From IMG/VR virus record IMGVR_UViG_3300024517_000077, positions 1-30,481 of that record: a DNA stretch of 30,481 bases; one strand, written 5' to 3'. The position numbers were made by a program, and so were the translations under genes. This document shows, piece by piece, positions 19,445-30,412 of this stretch (position 1 is the first letter of the stretch; every line of letters begins with the position of its first letter). This stretch comes from a virus. The notes beneath the pieces were generated by a model. That model ran no database searches, was not told the origin of the DNA, and saw only the letters and a list, made by a program, of their open reading frames with translations.

Positions 19445-19721
19445 TTAGCTCAACCTTTTGGACAACTTTACCCTCTACTCTGTCAAGTATTTCCCTTAAA
19501 TGCTGATACTTGCCTTTCGCGGCCTCTCGCAGCAGAACCTTGACGACGACTTCGGCGAGCTTGCCATCGTTTGCGTCCAGCGCTTGCCGAAGCCTTTTGG
19601 TCAAGCTAGAGCCCCTCGGCCGACCGCCGGGGTTGCCCGACTGGCCCGGCTTCCACATCGGCGCTAGGTTCGGGCTTCTTGGCTCCTTGTTTTTTTCCGT
19701 GTTGCTGTCGGTGTCAGCCAT
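19299..19721 (-). CDS. DUF5681-containing protein, probable small terminase
   Basis: The 140-residue protein carries APMWKPGQSGNPGGRPRGSS near residues 20-39, the DUF5681 signature. These proteins are repeatedly encoded just upstream of TerL in phages and are usually taken as small-terminase-like DNA-recognition subunits. The following region (LTKRLRQALDANDGKLAEVV) and the acidic helix after residue 85 would suit oligomerisation. It overlaps the ParB-methyltransferase gene by eight bases and TerL by 146 bases. The function is inferred from family and position; no helix-turn-helix is obvious. Confidence 0.72.
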   Translation of the reverse strand: MADTDSNTEKNKEPRSPNLAPMWKPGQSGNPGGRPRGSSLTKRLRQALDANDGKLAEVVVKVLLREAAKGKYQHLREILDRVEGKVVQKVELNATVQQAQDQFLEAAERVLEPEQLRRLVSELGRVRETMAIEACGQQSA

Positions 19722-20865
19722 CGGCCACCCGCTTTGCTTTCTTGCCCGTCAAATTCTCCCACCGCTCGACAATGACATCGCAGTATGCCGGGCTAATCTC
19801 GATGCCATAGCACTTACGCCCGAGCTGCTCGGCGGCGATGAGCGTTGTACCTGAGCCGAGGAAGGGGTCAAAGACATCGCCTCCCTTAACGCTTGCGCGC
19901 TCCAAAATCCACGCCCAGAACTTGATAGGCTTAGGGCACGGGTGAATGCTTTTGTCTGACGATTCTGTGTGTACAAGAGAGTCAGGGTGGCTCCCTTCTC
20001 CAGATGCCAACCTGGGATCCTTTCCATAGCAGATAATCGGTTGCCAACAACAAAAGCCCCATGGGCCCCTTCCCGCTCCTGCTGGCGTAAACCATGCCAT
20101 GGTCCATGATGGCTCTGAATATAAAAACAGGTTCTTGACCCCCGGTGTGATCACCATCCTCACACAGTACTTTTTTGCCAGTGGCACAAACCCAGCTATC
20201 AGCGCAACCAAGTTGGCCCTGCTGTCTTCGTGGCGATCGTAGTTGTTCTTGTTGCTTACGGTGTCACCCAAGCCATAAGGCGGGTCCGTTAAGCAAAGGT
20301 CGACCTTCTCCCCACCCATAAGCAGCGCCACATCCTCGGCCTTCGTCGAGTCACCGCAAAGCACGCGATGCTCGCCAAGCTGCCAAAGGTCGCCCGGTTT
20401 CGTCACCGGGTCAGCCGGTGGCTCTGGAACCTCATCCTCGACTACATCGTTAGCGCCTAGCCCAATCGTCTCGCTAATCAGCTTCTCAAGCTCAGCCTCA
20501 TCGAAACCAGCCGCCGCCAAAATCTCTTCGTCATCGATGGCCAGCGCCGATAGCTGCTCGGCTAGCGCAGCGTCATCCCACTCGGCCAGCTCGGCGGTGC
20601 GGTTATCGGCGATGGCGTAGGCCGTTCTGTCCGCCCCCTGAAGCGCCGACCGCACGACATGCACCTCTTGCCACCCAAGCTCACGAGCGGCCGCTAGCGT
20701 GCCGTTTCCGGCGACCACAACCCCTTTCCCGTCGACGACGATGGGCTTCTGCTGCCCGAACCGCGCCAAGCTCGCTTTGATCGTCTCGATGTTTTTCGCG
20801 CTGTGCTGCCGAACATTTGCAGGATCTTGCAGCAGCTTGTCAACGGCGATCCGCGATGCACGCAT
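19714..20865 (-). CDS. ParB-like domain fused to beta-class DNA methyltransferase
   Basis: The ATG at 20865 (MRASRIAVDKLLQDPANVRQ) fits the family start; a GTG at 20895 is in frame. The protein has 383 residues. Residues 1-115 form a ParB/sulfiredoxin-like domain with FGQQKPIVVDGKGVVVAGNG and LAAARELGW. After an acidic linker, the methyltransferase part has LCLTDPPYGLG (catalytic DPPY at 184-187). The AdoMet-binding motif comes late (DPFLGSGTTLIAAEQLG), followed by CYGIEISPAYCDVIVERW. The motif order makes it a beta-class N6-adenine or N4-cytosine enzyme. Such fusions are common in phages, where they modify phage DNA against restriction. An 84-base gap separates it from the resolvase gene. 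Target sequence unknown. Confidence 0.9.
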   Translation of the reverse strand: MRASRIAVDKLLQDPANVRQHSAKNIETIKASLARFGQQKPIVVDGKGVVVAGNGTLAAARELGWQEVHVVRSALQGADRTAYAIADNRTAELAEWDDAALAEQLSALAIDDEEILAAAGFDEAELEKLISETIGLGANDVVEDEVPEPPADPVTKPGDLWQLGEHRVLCGDSTKAEDVALLMGGEKVDLCLTDPPYGLGDTVSNKNNYDRHEDSRANLVALIAGFVPLAKKYCVRMVITPGVKNLFLYSEPSWTMAWFTPAGAGRGPWGFCCWQPIICYGKDPRLASGEGSHPDSLVHTESSDKSIHPCPKPIKFWAWILERASVKGGDVFDPFLGSGTTLIAAEQLGRKCYGIEISPAYCDVIVERWENLTGKKAKRVADG

Positions 20866-20979
20866 AGCAAAAAGATTGCCACAACATAAGGCCACACGTC
20901 AAAAAATCATGATATCCAAGATCGCAATCCCGCCGCAAGTGCCAGAGCTATCTGGGCAACATCAGCTGCCTTTTTGCAC

Positions 20980-21327
20980 CTACATTGGCTCCATTGTCAC
21001 GAGCACCGCATATTCACGCACCTGGCCCCTGGCTTGGCTGTAATGCCAGATGACGCGTGGATCGCGATCGTTTGGCAAGCCAAGCCAATCCGCAAGCTCG
21101 TCGCGAATCGCTTTGAGTGCGCCGCGCAAATTGTCGTCATCCAGCGCCCTTGGTGCCAGCCTGCAAAGCTCGACCTTGGCTGGCAATGGTGGCTGCCTTG
21201 CGCCAGCAACTAGCAGTGCAACCTGGGTTGCCTGCCGCTCTGCTCGAGTCTTGCGATGGCGCTTGGTCCAGTGGCCTCGCTCGTTTGTTTTCGAACAAGT
21301 GCGGATGTCGATCCTAACCGCAATCAT
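20980..21327 (-). CDS. RusA-like Holliday junction resolvase
   Basis: The 115-residue protein is the normal size for RusA. The acidic cluster LDDDNLRGALKAIRDELADW (residues 62-81), followed by NDRDP (86-90), provides the conserved aspartates of the catalytic site. The C-terminal VIWHYSQARGQVREYAVLV matches the family's closing strand. RusA cuts four-way junctions as a dimer; in phages it resolves recombination or packaging intermediates. It overlaps the preceding zinc-finger gene by four bases and lies in the same transcript as the replication-initiator genes. Together with the nuclease, putative annealing protein and SSB of the plus-strand operon it makes a full recombination set. Confidence 0.82.
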   Translation of the reverse strand: MIAVRIDIRTCSKTNERGHWTKRHRKTRAERQATQVALLVAGARQPPLPAKVELCRLAPRALDDDNLRGALKAIRDELADWLGLPNDRDPRVIWHYSQARGQVREYAVLVTMEPM

Positions 21328-21554
21328 CGGTCAGACTCGGCGCACCTTGCCGAGCAGTAGGCCGTCAGCCGGCCGAGAACAATCAAAGCTGCATTGCTGC
21401 AACGGTCACGGCTGCAGCTGGCAACAAATGGCTTTTGCCTGCGGTTTTTGCCCATTGGCGCAATCATCAAAACGCCACATTGGCAGCGCCAAAACCTCGT
21501 GCACAACACCTTGGTGTGGCGATGGCGGTGGTGGCAGTCGTCATTGTCAGTCAT
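21324..21554 (-). CDS. Small Cys/His-rich zinc-finger-like protein
   Basis: The ATG at 21554 overlaps the end of the methyltransferase gene by eight bases; a longer in-frame start at 21635 lies deep inside that gene and is unlikely. The protein has 76 residues. It has a His-rich start (DDCHHRHRHTKVLC), then CQCG, then CSRDRCSNAAL and a final YCSARCAESD. The paired C-x-C and C-x3/4-C groups suggest a zinc ribbon or knuckle. The four-base overlap with the RusA gene (ATGA) indicates co-translation. No family is recognised. Related small Cys-rich proteins occur elsewhere in the window. A role in DNA or protein binding is only inference. Confidence 0.65.
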   Translation of the reverse strand: MTDNDDCHHRHRHTKVLCTRFWRCQCGVLMIAPMGKNRRQKPFVASCSRDRCSNAALIVLGRLTAYCSARCAESDR

Positions 21555-22914
21555 CAAACAAGCCCATCTGTCTCTGGTCGGCTTTGACCTTTGGCGAGGC
21601 GAGCGGCTCAGCTTTGCCAAACCTGCAAGCGGCAATACGGCGGCCCGCTATATCTGCATACTGCGCACTCTGCTCGATGCCAACAAATCGAAACCCCTCA
21701 ATTTTGCAAGCCATGCCAGTCGTGCCAGAGCCACAGAATGGGTCGACCACCAAGCCGCCTGGTGGCGTGATAAGCCTGCATAGCCAGCGCATAAGATCGA
21801 TGCTTTTTACAGTTGGATGGATGTTTCTCCTTTCGCCGCCTCTCATGCCAGACCTTGGATTGTCTTGCCCATTGCTGCCAGGCTTGCGGCCGGTCACCTT
21901 TGACGGATCAACCCTTGCAACATCCCCAAGCCCAGCCTCTCGCTCTGCAGTGCTGGGCTTTGGCGAGTAGCGAAACCGAGGGAAAAACCGCGATGCGCCA
22001 CCGCTGTCGTTGAACCCACACGCATACCCAGACGGCTTGGCAAAGGTGCCATAGACAGCATTCCCGGACACCCCCCCATTATTGGACGCCACCGATTCCG
22101 TCGTGCCGCTCTGCTCATCCAGCATGGCAACTGGGCAGTCAGCCACGCATCGAGCGCCGCAGTCGGCGGCATGGGTTAGCAGCGTGTTACTGGGCCACCT
22201 TCCGGTTCTTCTTTGGCTTGCCTGGTCTTGTTCCCATGCTTCAGAGTTTAGCCGTTGGCCACCAATGCGGCAACCATCAACGTTCAACCCGCCGGTGCCA
22301 AACTCAACCACACACTGGGCGATTGTGCGCTTGCCGAGCGGCTTGCGGCATAGCCACCACATCTCTGCCGCTGGCTTCAAAGCTGTGCCCCACCCTTGCC
22401 AGCGTTTGGCGTCCTCGGTGGATGGCGCGGTTATGGCAACGTCAATCGGTGGCGCCGTCCCAGCGCCTACACCATACGTGCCCCCTTTGTCCTTGCACGA
22501 TACACCAGCATTTCCACCTATCGTATAGCTGCCAACTTGCTGCCTATCAGCACCAGCCGCCTTGTCGATCGCCTTGCTCACGTCGAGAGACTTCGGAAAC
22601 CCTGAGCCAAACAGATGCGTCAAACAATCGCGCACCTCAAAGCCAGCTGTCTCCAAAGCCATACCGGTCCAGTGCGACGTTCGAGGCAGCGCCCAAACCA
22701 CAGCATGGCCACCAGGCTTTAGCACTCGCAGCACCTCAGCCATGACGCTAGCAAGCCACGCTATCCATTGGTCACGGCCGCCTTTGCTGCCATCCCAGGC
22801 TTTGGCCATGAACGCAATGCCAGCCGGTGGGTCTGTAACACATGCATCAATGCTGCAGCTATCAATGCCCCGCAAAACCTCGAGGCAATCACCTGTGATG
22901 ATGACGTCAGCCAT
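21547..22914 (-). CDS. Beta-class DNA methyltransferase with DPPA motif
   Basis: The 455-residue protein starts ADVIITGDCLEVLRGIDS and has ACVTDPPAGIAFMAKAWD at about residues 29-46. The AdoMet-binding motif is at the C-terminal end (VVDPFCGSGTTGMACKIEG), followed by FVGIEQSAQYADIAGRRI, giving the beta-class order. The catalytic tetrapeptide is DPPA rather than DPPY/SPPY; I recall the same 'DPPAGi.FM...WD' form in other phage-encoded methyltransferases, so it is probably functional. The large central region (about 130-340) would hold target recognition and includes CGARCVADC. It overlaps its upstream neighbour by eight bases. Likely role: protection of phage DNA. Base and site specificity are unknown. 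Confidence 0.85.
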   Translation of the reverse strand: MADVIITGDCLEVLRGIDSCSIDACVTDPPAGIAFMAKAWDGSKGGRDQWIAWLASVMAEVLRVLKPGGHAVVWALPRTSHWTGMALETAGFEVRDCLTHLFGSGFPKSLDVSKAIDKAAGADRQQVGSYTIGGNAGVSCKDKGGTYGVGAGTAPPIDVAITAPSTEDAKRWQGWGTALKPAAEMWWLCRKPLGKRTIAQCVVEFGTGGLNVDGCRIGGQRLNSEAWEQDQASQRRTGRWPSNTLLTHAADCGARCVADCPVAMLDEQSGTTESVASNNGGVSGNAVYGTFAKPSGYACGFNDSGGASRFFPRFRYSPKPSTAEREAGLGDVARVDPSKVTGRKPGSNGQDNPRSGMRGGERRNIHPTVKSIDLMRWLCRLITPPGGLVVDPFCGSGTTGMACKIEGFRFVGIEQSAQYADIAGRRIAACRFGKAEPLASPKVKADQRQMGLFDD

Positions 22915-24144: not shown

Positions 24145-24327
24145 CTAGCCTGCCTCACTGGCTGGCTGCTGCGGCTGTGGCCGCTCGATGCCTAGCCGCT
24201 TGCAAGCGGCTCGCAGGGCATAGTCCAAACCAGACGCAACGCTGGATGGATCGTCCCCCCACTTTCCAACTGTTCTTGGATCAATCCCCGTCTCACCGCT
24301 CAGGCGCAGTTTTTCACGTCTATTCAT
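24145..24327 (-). CDS. Small HTH regulator (Cro/repressor-like)
   Basis: The 60-residue protein starts MNRREKLRLSGETGIDPRTV, followed by GKWGDDPSSVASGLDYALRA and ACKRLGIERP. The pattern 'l~~~tGi~~~tv~kw' is a compact helix-turn-helix in which the recognition helix covers roughly residues 16-26. The C-terminus is Pro/Gln-rich and short. It is the first gene of the 24-kb minus-strand block and faces the divergent plus-strand operon, the usual place for a Cro- or CI-like switch protein. The start codon overlaps an ATGCCT half-site, and a promoter-like TACAAT ends five bases before the ATG, suggesting a leaderless, autoregulated transcript. The DNA-binding role is fairly secure; the switch role is inferred. 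Confidence 0.68.
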   Translation of the reverse strand: MNRREKLRLSGETGIDPRTVGKWGDDPSSVASGLDYALRAACKRLGIERPQPQQPASEAG

Positions 24328-24350: not shown

Positions 24351-24363
24351 GCCATAAGGTCAA
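24333..24363 (-). promoter_or_regulatory. Probable promoter of the minus-strand block (leaderless)
   Basis: Read on the minus strand, TTGACC (24363-24358) and TACAAT (24338-24333) each match a sigma70 consensus box at five of six positions, with a rather long 19-base spacer. TACAAT ends five bases before the ATG at 24327, so a start site six bases downstream would be the A of that ATG and the mRNA would have no leader. Lambda cI from PRM is a precedent for leaderless repressor mRNA. The remaining intergenic DNA up to 24441 must hold the plus-strand promoter, but I cannot pick boxes for it with confidence. Confidence 0.5.
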
Positions 24364-24441
24364 GCGGCTTGTCATGTTGGGGCCACCTAGTTGCAACAAT
24401 TATGTTGACCGCAATGTAGCAGGTGTGGCAAGGTGCACATC

Positions 24442-24705: not shown

Positions 24706-25184
24706 GCAACCTACCGCCGGGATGTGAGCAGTGGCACATTGACCAGTCGCAGCTTGGCGACTGGTGTGACCGCTGCGTCTCAGAGATCGAGCGCGATGGC
24801 AGTTGTGATTGCTATCGCAGCTGCCGCAAGTGCGGCCAAAAGACAATAGAGCCATGCAGATGCGAAAGGATGCGAGCTATGAATTTCCAACAGGCCTTTT
24901 TGGCCCTGCAAGAGCTGGCAACCCAGCGGCTGGACGTTGTTAGCCTCACCGTCGAGTGCTGGATCCGTCCAGCGGGCAGTGGCTATAGCGGGTCGAAAAT
25001 GACCCGCAGGCACTCGAGCGCGGAGCTGGAGTGGCAGGTGTGGTCACAGCAGGCGAGCCAAAACTTCTGCGCACCGAGCGCAGCAGAGGCCATCGAGCGC
25101 TATCGCCTTGGAGTTAGCGACGAAACGTCAACAGAGGCAACAGCCGCAAACCTGCGTCTAGTGGGGGACTGCAATGTGGATTGA
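24702..25184 (+). CDS. Cys-rich N-terminus plus unknown domain, early protein
   Basis: The ATG at 24702 overlaps the upstream stop as ATGA; an earlier in-frame ATG at 24612 lies inside the previous gene. The protein has 160 residues. Residues 20-60 hold a dense Cys cluster, CDRCVSEIERDGSCDCYRSC, then RKCGQKTIEPCRCERMR, probably zinc-binding. The rest (MNFQQAFLALQELATQRLDV, then VECWIRPAGSGYSG, then WQVWSQQASQNFCAPSAAEA) looks like a separate small alpha/beta domain. An internal ATG at 24880 has AAAGGA about 8 bases upstream, so the second domain could also be made alone (101 residues). The second domain resembles short phage proteins of the 'W...~g~~~~a~s~~eal' kind, function unknown. Confidence 0.6.
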   Translation: MSNLPPGCEQWHIDQSQLGDWCDRCVSEIERDGSCDCYRSCRKCGQKTIEPCRCERMRAMNFQQAFLALQELATQRLDVVSLTVECWIRPAGSGYSGSKMTRRHSSAELEWQVWSQQASQNFCAPSAAEAIERYRLGVSDETSTEATAANLRLVGDCNVD

Positions 25185-25440
25185 TTTTGGGAGGGAGCTG
25201 CTCAGGCTGGCAGCGTGCGCCTTTTGCGCTATTGCGCTGTTAGCACTCTGCATCGTGCTGGCGGGATGCCAGCGGCCAGTAAAGGTGCCAGCCGTTGGCA
25301 CCGTTTGCGCTGACAAGAACAGCAGCAAGCTCGTGCTGCGGCGGTGGATACCTGGCAGCGCTGCTGCTGGCTATCCGCTGGTCTGCGCCGAATATCGGCA
25401 TAGCTGCAACAGTGGCCGCTGCGAGGCGGTGGCACCATGA
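25174..25440 (+). CDS. Small putative lipoprotein
   Basis: The 88-residue protein overlaps the upstream gene by 11 bases, with GGGGGA a few bases before the ATG. Residues 10-30 are strongly hydrophobic (LRLAACAFCAIALLALCIVL) and end in a lipobox-like LAGC, so cleavage and lipidation at that Cys is likely. The mature part has four further cysteines (VCADKN, VCAEYRHSCNSGRC), which could form disulphides in the periplasm. Such small envelope proteins in early operons can be superinfection-exclusion or lysis-related factors, but nothing here is specific. If lipidation occurs, a Gram-negative host is the natural fit. Confidence 0.62.
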   Translation: MWIDFGRELLRLAACAFCAIALLALCIVLAGCQRPVKVPAVGTVCADKNSSKLVLRRWIPGSAAAGYPLVCAEYRHSCNSGRCEAVAP

Positions 25441-26939
25441 GGCTGGCGCTGGTGGACCTGAGCGCCGTATGGTGGACCAACTGGCATGCAACCAGCGATA
25501 GCCAGCTGTCTGCGGCTTATGACAACACACTGCGCATGATTGGCTCGGTAGCTGCGAATCACGATCAGACAGTCATCTGTCTGGACAGCCCCAAGAGCCG
25601 CCGCAAAGAGATGGAGCCGTCTTACAAGGCTCAACGCGAGCCAAAGCCAAAAGCAGCGCTTGAGCAAGCGCGCAGGCTGTTGGCAGAGCTGAAAAAGCGC
25701 TGGCCGTGCTACCAGATTGACGGCCTCGAGGGGGATGACGTCATTGCCACATTTGTTGGCCGAATGGATGAAATCAAAGGGTTGTACAACCCCCGCCGCC
25801 GCTTTGGCGAGTATGAGTTTTGCGATGGACTCGAGCTTGTCATCGTTGGCTGTGACAAGGATTTTTGGCAGTTGTTGGGTGACTGTGTGTCAATGTGGAA
25901 TTTTTCGACAGGGCAGGCCTTTGCAGCTGCAGACTTGATGGCAAAACACGGCATCGAGCCACGCCAAGCTGTGGATTGGCAGGCGCTAGTGGGTGACGCA
26001 GCAGACAATCTGCCAGGGGTCAAAGGCTGCGGGCCAAAGACCGCAACCAAGCTGCTGCAGCAGTTTGGCTCAGCTACTGAGGTGCTCGACGCTGCCAAGC
26101 GCCGGCCAACCGAGTTTGGTGGCAAAAAGCAGCTGTTGTTCAACCTGCAGGAATCGAGCGATCTAATCTACCGAAACCTCGAGCTGATGAGGCTCGTGGT
26201 TGATCAAGAAATGCCATTCGAAGCTGAGTGGGTCAAAGAAGAACGCGAGGCCATCGAATGGGTCGCAGAACAAGAGCAAAAGGAGACCGCAATGAAGCCA
26301 AGCCCACTACCACCACAACCACCACCACAACCAGAGCCAGAGCCAGAGCCAGCGCCTAGCCAGCCACAGGCCCCACCGGCCCGCAAGTCTGACCGGGCAA
26401 TGGTTGTGGGCCAGTCAGCTGACTTCACACGAGCGCTTGAGCCCATGGACATGCGCCAACTGGCGTTTGCGGCTGCCAAGTTTCACGAGAGCCGCTTGTA
26501 TCAGCGCAAGTTTCGCAACGCAGACGAGATCGTCATCTGCGCCATGGCGGGCAGAGAGCGAGGCCTTGGCTTGTTCAGCTCGTTGGCAAATATCCACATC
26601 ATCGAAGGCCAGCCTGCGTTCAGTAGCCACATATTGGTGGGATTCGCGCGGCAGCATCCAGATTGCGAGTGGTTCAGGATGGTCGAAAGCACCGACCAAT
26701 CGGCTACTTTTGAAACCAAGCGCAGGGGCAGCCCACAGGCTGAAACCTGCACTTACACTATAGATGATGCCAAGCAAGCTGGAGTTTGGCGCAGCGGCGG
26801 AAACTGGGCAAAGCGCCCAAAGCAGATGCTGCGCAAACAGGCTGCTGTCGAGCTTGCTCGCGCTGTTTATCAAGATGCATGCGCCGGACTTTATTGCCCA
26901 GAAGAGCTGACGGGAGGCGAAACATGGGTGCAGGAATGA
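25437..26939 (+). CDS. Flap/5'-3' exonuclease fused to RecT-like annealing-protein candidate
   Basis: A 500-residue fusion. Residues 1-260 match T5/PolA-type 5' nucleases: LALVDLSA (Asp7), YKAQREPKP (63-71), IDGLEGDDVIATF (94-106) and VIVGCDKDFWQLL (135-147). The helix-hairpin-helix LVGDAADNLPGVKGCGPKTA lies at 184-203. A Pro/Gln/Glu linker spans about 286-316. Residues 330-495 carry LAFAAAKFHESRLYQ, ICAMAGRERGLGLFSSLANI, HIIEGQPAFSSHILVGFA, WAKRPKQMLRKQAAVELARA and GLYCPEEL. That pattern is shared with phage proteins I take to be RecT-like single-strand annealing proteins. The start overlaps the lipoprotein stop as ATGA. The pair would make 3' tails and anneal them in one chain. The nuclease is confident, the annealing protein moderate. 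An internal start gives the second domain alone. Confidence 0.85.
   Translation: MRLALVDLSAVWWTNWHATSDSQLSAAYDNTLRMIGSVAANHDQTVICLDSPKSRRKEMEPSYKAQREPKPKAALEQARRLLAELKKRWPCYQIDGLEGDDVIATFVGRMDEIKGLYNPRRRFGEYEFCDGLELVIVGCDKDFWQLLGDCVSMWNFSTGQAFAAADLMAKHGIEPRQAVDWQALVGDAADNLPGVKGCGPKTATKLLQQFGSATEVLDAAKRRPTEFGGKKQLLFNLQESSDLIYRNLELMRLVVDQEMPFEAEWVKEEREAIEWVAEQEQKETAMKPSPLPPQPPPQPEPEPEPAPSQPQAPPARKSDRAMVVGQSADFTRALEPMDMRQLAFAAAKFHESRLYQRKFRNADEIVICAMAGRERGLGLFSSLANIHIIEGQPAFSSHILVGFARQHPDCEWFRMVESTDQSATFETKRRGSPQAETCTYTIDDAKQAGVWRSGGNWAKRPKQMLRKQAAVELARAVYQDACAGLYCPEELTGGETWVQE
26292..26939 (+). CDS. Internal-start product: linker plus RecT-like domain
   Basis: The ATG at 26292 is in frame at residue 286, exactly where the nuclease domain ends and the Pro-rich linker begins. 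It is preceded by AAAAGGAGA, with AAGGAG at 26280-26285 and a 6-base spacer, which is close to ideal. The same AAAAGGAGAC stretch precedes the SSB start at 27169. A separate 215-residue annealing-protein candidate would be made in addition to the fusion. This could mean a recent fusion of two genes that kept the second ribosome site, or deliberate production of both forms. The site is seen directly; its use is inferred. Confidence 0.6.
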   Translation: MKPSPLPPQPPPQPEPEPEPAPSQPQAPPARKSDRAMVVGQSADFTRALEPMDMRQLAFAAAKFHESRLYQRKFRNADEIVICAMAGRERGLGLFSSLANIHIIEGQPAFSSHILVGFARQHPDCEWFRMVESTDQSATFETKRRGSPQAETCTYTIDDAKQAGVWRSGGNWAKRPKQMLRKQAAVELARAVYQDACAGLYCPEELTGGETWVQE

Positions 26940-27588: not shown

Positions 27589-27968
27589 TGGACGAAAAAG
27601 CAAGGGCCATCGCGGCATTGTGGGGATCGCAAAAAGAGCTTGTGGCCAGGATTGACGCTGCAACATCGGAGCTGATTGTGGGCTTGTCGCATGAGATTCG
27701 CGCAGCCAGCTCCAGCGAGGACATCAGGCGGATTGCGGGCCGATGGCCAGACCGAACCTGGCGACATCTGGCATCTCTGCTGCAAGACAACATTGTGTCC
27801 TGGCTCGAGATATCCCGCATTGTCCAGCTGCACATGGTCGGGATCCCGGTTGGCGTCGAGCGCCCGGTCTCCCGGGAGTCTTACGAACTAGTGATGCGGC
27901 ACATTGAGCGGTGCCAAGAGCCGCACGGCCATTGGTGCTGCGGCCCTGACGTTGAGCCGACGCATTGA
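27588..27968 (+). CDS. Hypothetical helical early protein
   Basis: The ATG at 27588 overlaps the SSB stop as TGATG; an in-frame start nine bases earlier is less likely. The product has 126 residues and is mostly alpha-helical by composition (EKARAIAALWGSQKELVARI, then SEDIRRIAGRWPDRTWRHLA and LEISRIVQLHMVG). The C-terminus has HIERCQEPHGHWCCGPDVEP, with three Cys and three His, a possible metal site. It overlaps the C5 methyltransferase start by four bases. No family recognised. Context (SSB before, methyltransferase after) suggests a DNA-metabolism accessory. Confidence 0.65.
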   Translation: MDEKARAIAALWGSQKELVARIDAATSELIVGLSHEIRAASSSEDIRRIAGRWPDRTWRHLASLLQDNIVSWLEISRIVQLHMVGIPVGVERPVSRESYELVMRHIERCQEPHGHWCCGPDVEPTH

Positions 27969-28693
27969 TTGGCAGTCTTTTCAGCGGAATCGGTGGCCTC
28001 GAGCTTGGGCTTGAGGCTGCTGGGCTTGGCCCAGTTGCATGGCAAGTCGAAATAGATCCATATTGCCGCGAGGTACTCAAAAAACACTGGCCGCAAGCAG
28101 GGCAACATGCAGACATTCGAGACATATCAAAGCTGCCAGCCGTCGATGTCATCTGCGGCGGGTTTCCTTGCCAAGACATTTCTGCCGCAGGCAAGGGCGC
28201 TGGCCTTGATGGTCCTCAAAGCGGCTTATGGTGGGAATTTGCCAGAGTCATTGAGGCAAACAGGCCAGCTTTCGTTGTTGTTGAAAATGTCGCCAGCGGA
28301 GCCAAGCGCTGGGTTGATGCCGTATGTGGGTCCCTGGGAAAGCTCGGCTACCAAACGCTACCGATCCCGATTGCGGCAAGCGATGTTGGGGCTCCGCACC
28401 TGCGACGGCGAATATTTATCATCGGCTACAATTCTGCCAACGCCATCGGCTGTGAGCTATGGCAACAACAGGGGAGGCAGAGCGGGAAGAGTGGGCCCAA
28501 TCCGCCACAGCCTACAGAGCTTGGCGCGACACAAGGGTGGCAGCCTCTGCCATCGATTTGCAGAAGCAATGATGGGCCTGACTCGCGACTGGACCGTGCC
28601 AGATTGCGAGCGCTAGGCAACGCAGTGGTGCCACACTGCGCGATGGTTGTTGGCGAGGTTATTCAGCTGCTGATTGCTCAGCACGAGCAATGA
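27965..28693 (+). CDS. C5-cytosine DNA methyltransferase (Dcm type), compact
   Basis: A TTG start at 27965 overlaps the upstream stop (TTGA). The 242-residue protein has motif I SLFSGIGGLELGLEAAG (4-20). Motif IV is GGFPCQDIS with catalytic Cys69, and motif VI is ENV (107-109). Motif VIII is RRRIFIIG (147-154) and motif X is GNAVVPH. Only about 60 residues separate motif VIII from the C-terminal motif, where a target-recognition domain usually occupies 100 or more, so this enzyme is unusually small. Its end overlaps the convergent XRE gene by 35 bases. Probable role: modification of phage DNA, adding to the two adenine/N4-type enzymes on the other strand. Confidence 0.9.
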   Translation: MIGSLFSGIGGLELGLEAAGLGPVAWQVEIDPYCREVLKKHWPQAGQHADIRDISKLPAVDVICGGFPCQDISAAGKGAGLDGPQSGLWWEFARVIEANRPAFVVVENVASGAKRWVDAVCGSLGKLGYQTLPIPIAASDVGAPHLRRRIFIIGYNSANAIGCELWQQQGRQSGKSGPNPPQPTELGATQGWQPLPSICRSNDGPDSRLDRARLRALGNAVVPHCAMVVGEVIQLLIAQHEQ

Positions 28694-30259: not shown

Positions 30260-30301
30260 CTTGGCAACACCTACCAGTGCTTTTTTCGCGCTTTTTTTTG
30301 A

Positions 30302-30412
30302 CTAGCGTGTGATTTCGCTAGCTTGCGAGCGCCTAAAGGTCACTGACTACCACCTTTTTGCACCTGGCGTGTGATTTCGCTAGTTTGCGGGGCGCACCAT
30401 CTTGCGAGCGCC
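30302..30412. repeat. Direct repeats with internal inverted repeats (iteron- or operator-like)
   Basis: GCGTGTGATTTCGCTAG occurs at 30305-30321 and again at 30367-30383, 62 bases apart. Each is followed by a similar YTTGCG. In the first copy CTAGCG (30302-30307) pairs with CGCTAG (30316-30321) around eight bases; in the second copy one arm base differs. A second motif, CTTGCGAGCGCC, is present at 30322-30333 and 30401-30412. The stretch 30234-30481 has no convincing ORF; it also contains T-runs near 30281-30299. Such arrays serve as origins, operators or recombination ends; which one applies here is unknown. Confidence 0.8.

Follow-up and report, generated by a model that had tools for sequence, protein, structure and literature searches.

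Phage two-component recombinases work by resection of the 5' strand, after which a protein contact brings the annealer onto the 3' overhang (PMC9772228, PMC7496540). In lambda Red (lambda Exo and Redbeta) and in the RecE/RecT SynExo, a 5'-3' nuclease is paired with a separate annealer protein of the RecT/Redbeta fold. Truncation of the Redbeta C-terminus leaves annealing intact and abolishes recombination, and this domain contributes to Redalpha binding (PMC5052646). SSB is a further partner of Redbeta, again with a contribution of the C-terminal domain, and for LiRecT the C-terminal residues are expected to have a role in partner binding (PMC9772228). The handover of the 3' strand from exonuclease to annealer is a central question for these recombinases and for recombineering, and partner specificity limits their recombineering use. 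In DNA assembly, end resection is done with T5 exonuclease (PMC10457141).

A single gene in IMG/VR virus record IMGVR_UViG_3300024517_000077 joins a 5' nuclease domain and an annealing domain of this fold within one polypeptide. The window analyzed is the whole stretch of 30,481 nucleotides. Its relevant features are listed in Table 1.

Table 1. Features at and around the fused gene
Feature	Position	Strand	Evidence or remark
Protein with ParB-like domain and DNA methyltransferase	19714-20895	-	PHROG 498, E 2e-97; ParB-like PHROG 620
RusA-like Holliday junction resolvase	20980-21327	-	PHROG 34, E 1.3e-4
DNA methyltransferase	21547-22914	-	PF01555
Small ORF overlapping the fusion start (ATGA)	25174-25440	+	weak PHROG 4392
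Fused 5' nuclease-RecT ORF	25437-26939	+	500 aa; one open frame from ATG
T5/PolA-type 5' nuclease domain, residues 1-265	25437-26231	+	PF02739/PF01367; alignment to T5 and Taq chains
Pro/Gln/Glu-rich tether, residues 279-331	26271-26429	+	15 Pro in 53 residues
Candidate internal start, AAGGAG-ACCGCA-ATG	26280-26294	+	ATG at 26292; 215-aa annealer-only product
RecT/Redbeta-type annealing core, residues 319-500	26391-26936	+	PF03837, PHROG 561/4171, Foldseek, VIA-align to 7ujl and 7ub2
Cys-rich ORF overlapping the fusion stop, 45 aa	26936-27073	+	weak PHROG 2255 HNH
SSB, 139 aa	27169-27588	+	PHROG 44, E 1.2e-42
DNA methyltransferase	27965-28693	+	PHROG 363

The fused reading frame

The preliminary description of this DNA had proposed that an intact T5/PolA-type flap nuclease and a RecT-like C-terminal domain share one 500-residue ORF, joined by a Pro/Gln/Glu linker. 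Each element of this arrangement was recovered, and the 500 codons contain no internal stop. At its start, the ATG shares bases with the stop codon of the small ORF before it, and translational coupling of the two is probable from the sequence.

Residues 3-169 match PF02739 (E 1.5e-17, 64.2 bits against a cut-off of 34.3) and residues 173-265 match PF01367 (E 3.8e-20, 72.6 bits against a cut-off of 40) in Pfam. When aligned to the T5 and Taq polymerase chains, D7, D50, K64, R67, E98, D100, D101, D140, D142, D187, and D190 fall on the active site of T5 FEN. Their T5 FEN counterparts, in the same order, we take to be D26, D68, K83, R86, E128, D130, D131, D153, D155, D201, and D204. The metal-binding acidic residues and the active-site Lys and Arg are all present, and they are invariant in the second copy described below. 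The predicted fold is also that of T5 FEN. The N-terminal part is a member of the T5/PolA-type 5' nuclease (FEN) family with all active-site residues, and nuclease activity is predicted.

The C-terminal part matches PF03837 (RecT) at residues 429-491 of the fusion, with 25.5 bits against a Pfam cut-off of 24. When the RecT part is searched alone, the match scores 28.7 bits (E 1.2e-6). PHROG 561, a RecT-like family, covers residues 365-491 (E 6e-14), and a further RecT-like family, PHROG 4171, was also matched. A profile search of this part had been suggested earlier; it leads to annealing proteins and not to an unrelated family.

Predicted structure of the annealer

A profile built from six relatives (A2) finds lambda Redbeta (7ujl, E 9e-4), whereas a sequence search with the narrower A5 profile alone gave no RecT structure. 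An AlphaFold2 model of residues 286-500 has a mean pLDDT of 55, with values of about 70-86 over fragment residues 121-190 only. Redbeta was the sole Foldseek match to this model below 0.001 (7ujl, E 9e-4). VIA-align placed Redbeta 7ujl first (Z 7.7, 83 residues, 2.8 A) and Listeria phage RecT 7ub2 second (Z 6.2, 83 residues, 2.9 A), with unrelated rows from Z 5.0 downward. This margin is modest, so the assignment rests on sequence and structure together.

Structure prediction had likewise been proposed, and it recovers both folds from the fusion. With a single model of all 500 residues, Foldseek returned two separate matches, T5 flap endonuclease at E 9e-9 and Redbeta at E 3e-5. The full-length model is of low confidence (mean pLDDT 50), so the domain arrangement cannot be read from it. 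The C-terminal part is a RecT/Redbeta superfamily core, for which annealing and oligomer formation are predicted from the sequence and the models.

Missing C-terminal tail

In alignment A5, nine residues follow the RecT core in both known fusions, against 94-123 residues in 25 stand-alone relatives. The fused annealer keeps the superfamily core and departs from the architecture of the stand-alone subfamily in its C-terminal region. Since the core defines the RecT/Redbeta superfamily, that assignment stands despite the missing accessory tail. An annealer that lacks a tail kept by 25 of 25 stand-alone relatives suggests dependence on the tether. The covalent tether would replace docking through the lost C-terminal region, if the tail of the subfamily docks as that of Redbeta does. 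Both this loss and the possible internal start discussed below are additional to the claims of the preliminary description.

The missing tail as a separate downstream gene was considered and rejected, as the next ORF encodes the 45-residue Cys-rich protein. Most of the stand-alone relatives (L009-L037, A5) end in a conserved acidic tip such as DPDDLPAAW.

Second copy of the fusion

The preliminary description had also proposed a search for other proteins with both domains. One was found in IMG/VR, on contig 3300033144_004172 (L002), with 93% protein identity. Both known copies of the fusion are on metagenomic virus contigs. The two differ mostly at synonymous sites, with dS of about 0.63 and omega values of 0.09 in the nuclease, 0.06 in the RecT part, and 0.38 in the tether. 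Both the nuclease and the RecT halves are thus under purifying selection, as judged from this comparison. There are length differences of 30, 3, and 18 nt, and every one is in frame; those of 3 and 18 nt change the length of the tether.

Possible internal start

A Shine-Dalgarno (SD) motif and ATG within the tether region may serve to make the annealer on its own. The motif and spacing of this candidate start are the same as those of the SSB start (AAGGAG-ACGAAG-ATG). It is kept in L002 (3472-3486) while the adjoining tether changes length. Of the ATGs in the window, it ranks within the best 3.6% by anti-SD energy. Chance alone would give about 1.6 motifs of this kind per window; four were found, a number that 6 of 100 shuffles reach, so the candidate may be a chance occurrence.

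Genomic neighborhood

The window also encodes terminase, portal, head, tail sheath, tape measure, and baseplate genes, which indicate a contractile-tailed phage as the source. As described earlier, SSB follows the fusion at a distance of 230 nt, with small ORFs in the gap. A gene for an unknown protein and one for a DNA methyltransferase lie downstream of SSB. A RusA gene had been placed across the control region from the fusion. A RusA-like gene is indeed present on the divergent strand. The earlier placement holds only loosely, since a methyltransferase and two other genes separate this gene from the divergent control region (24.14-24.43 kb), at a distance of about 3 kb.

That control region surrounds a small gene (24145-24327) and contains an imperfect 26-nt inverted repeat (77%; 24177-24202 and 24361-24386). 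Two 35-nt direct repeats, 83% identical, are found near the right end (30293-30327 and 30355-30389; common sequence GCGTGTGATTTCGCTAG). There are three DNA methyltransferases in the 30 kb.

Proposed function

The gene probably encodes an exonuclease/annealase phage recombinase in one polypeptide, with the tether in place of a docking region. The architecture is well supported; the coupling and the use of an internal start, as well as the enzymatic activities and loading of the annealer in cis, we infer. The T5-type nuclease would act on DNA ends, nicks, or flaps, where it would remove the 5' strand. The RecT core, on its flexible Pro-rich tether, would be kept on the 3' strand thus exposed, to which it would anneal a complementary strand, and the SSB encoded next door could take part alongside. 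A covalent tether would then stand in for the C-terminal docking by which lambda-type annealers bind their exonuclease. The internal start may add free annealer; an oligomer could then consist largely of this form and contain only a few nuclease-bearing subunits.

A more specific form of this proposal can be put forward only tentatively. One gene with two starts would yield the fusion and free annealer, which co-assemble; the nuclease-bearing subunits would nucleate the oligomer at a resected end, and the linkage would have replaced the docking domain of RecT.

It is rather unlikely that the two domains are made together and have separate jobs. The nuclease would trim replication primers or flaps, the annealer would recombine, and the fusion would be a neutral joining of neighboring genes. 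T5/PolA-type nucleases are replication enzymes in many phages, with primer removal among their tasks, so the fusion may have a role in replication that involves no coupling. Conservation of the tether is poor, and neighboring separate genes for an SSAP and a T5-type nuclease exist, as in Flavobacterium phage elemoA. However, the fusion has persisted through the divergence from L002 with indels in frame only, and the loss of the tail suggests that the annealer depends on the tether.

It is less likely still that the locus is mainly two overlapping genes, with most of the annealer made from the start at 26292 and the fusion as a minor product. SSAPs act as large oligomers, and the candidate start resembles that of SSB and is kept in L002. 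However, neither copy has a stop between the two parts, and the internal motif is too common to be decisive. An artefact of assembly or sequencing that joined two genes can be dismissed for practical purposes even though the source is a metagenomic contig, since the diverged L002 carries the same join, with mostly synonymous differences, in-frame indels only, and no stop codon or frame error at the junction.

As a natural one-chain recombinase, the protein would make resection-coupled annealing testable by splitting or lengthening of the tether. It could also serve as a compact tool for recombineering or DNA assembly.

Comparison with known systems

In scans of IMG/VR, whether the query was the full protein, either half, or one of three alignments, no fusion other than L002 came up, and two scans of GTDB genomes found no relatives. 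These scans rely on short peptide patterns, so distant members would escape them. Among 50,697 phage and 72,556 plasmid records, none had one place covering 80% of the fusion protein, in a search of limited sensitivity. A nuclease-RecT fusion was not described in the literature searched, which was of limited coverage, and the words fused and fusion are absent from a survey of Firmicutes SSAPs (PMC8093625). Within the sensitivity of these searches, the one-chain form of a two-component phage recombinase appears to be new, with components of known kind.

The closest proteins to the C-terminal part, at about 30-35% identity, are the stand-alone RecT-like SSAPs of PHROG 561 (Synechococcus phage S-LBS1 and IMG/VR L009-L037). 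Unlike the fusion, each of these is a protein of its own, about 280-330 aa long, with a tail of 94-123 aa. In S-LBS1, SSB follows the RecT-like gene, as it does here. A VRR-NUC gene lies upstream of the stand-alone relative in S-LBS1, L014, and L016. Other separate nucleases near such relatives are a RecE-like one in Gordonia phage Wizard and exonucleases in a Manatee Spring phage and in Frokostdame.

In elemoA, the genes for an annealer and a T5-type 5'-3' exonuclease are side by side, 25 nt apart. They differ from the fusion in that they are separate, are in the opposite order (annealer first), and encode an ERF and not a RecT annealer. This pair is plausibly an unfused counterpart of the fusion.

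The exonuclease and annealer of a SynExo are physically associated; here the association is covalent by sequence, with the activities predicted. In comparison to lambda Red and RecET, the fusion is one chain, its annealer is without the C-terminal region, and its nuclease is of the T5/PolA type and not of the lambda Exo/RecE/YqaJ type. The fusion may act in a similar way, but this nuclease places it outside both systems. Its nuclease fold and all of its active-site residues are as in the T5 D15 flap endonuclease and the 5' nuclease domain of PolA. T5 D15 is a single-domain protein and the PolA nuclease is fused to a polymerase, whereas here the nuclease is fused to an annealer.
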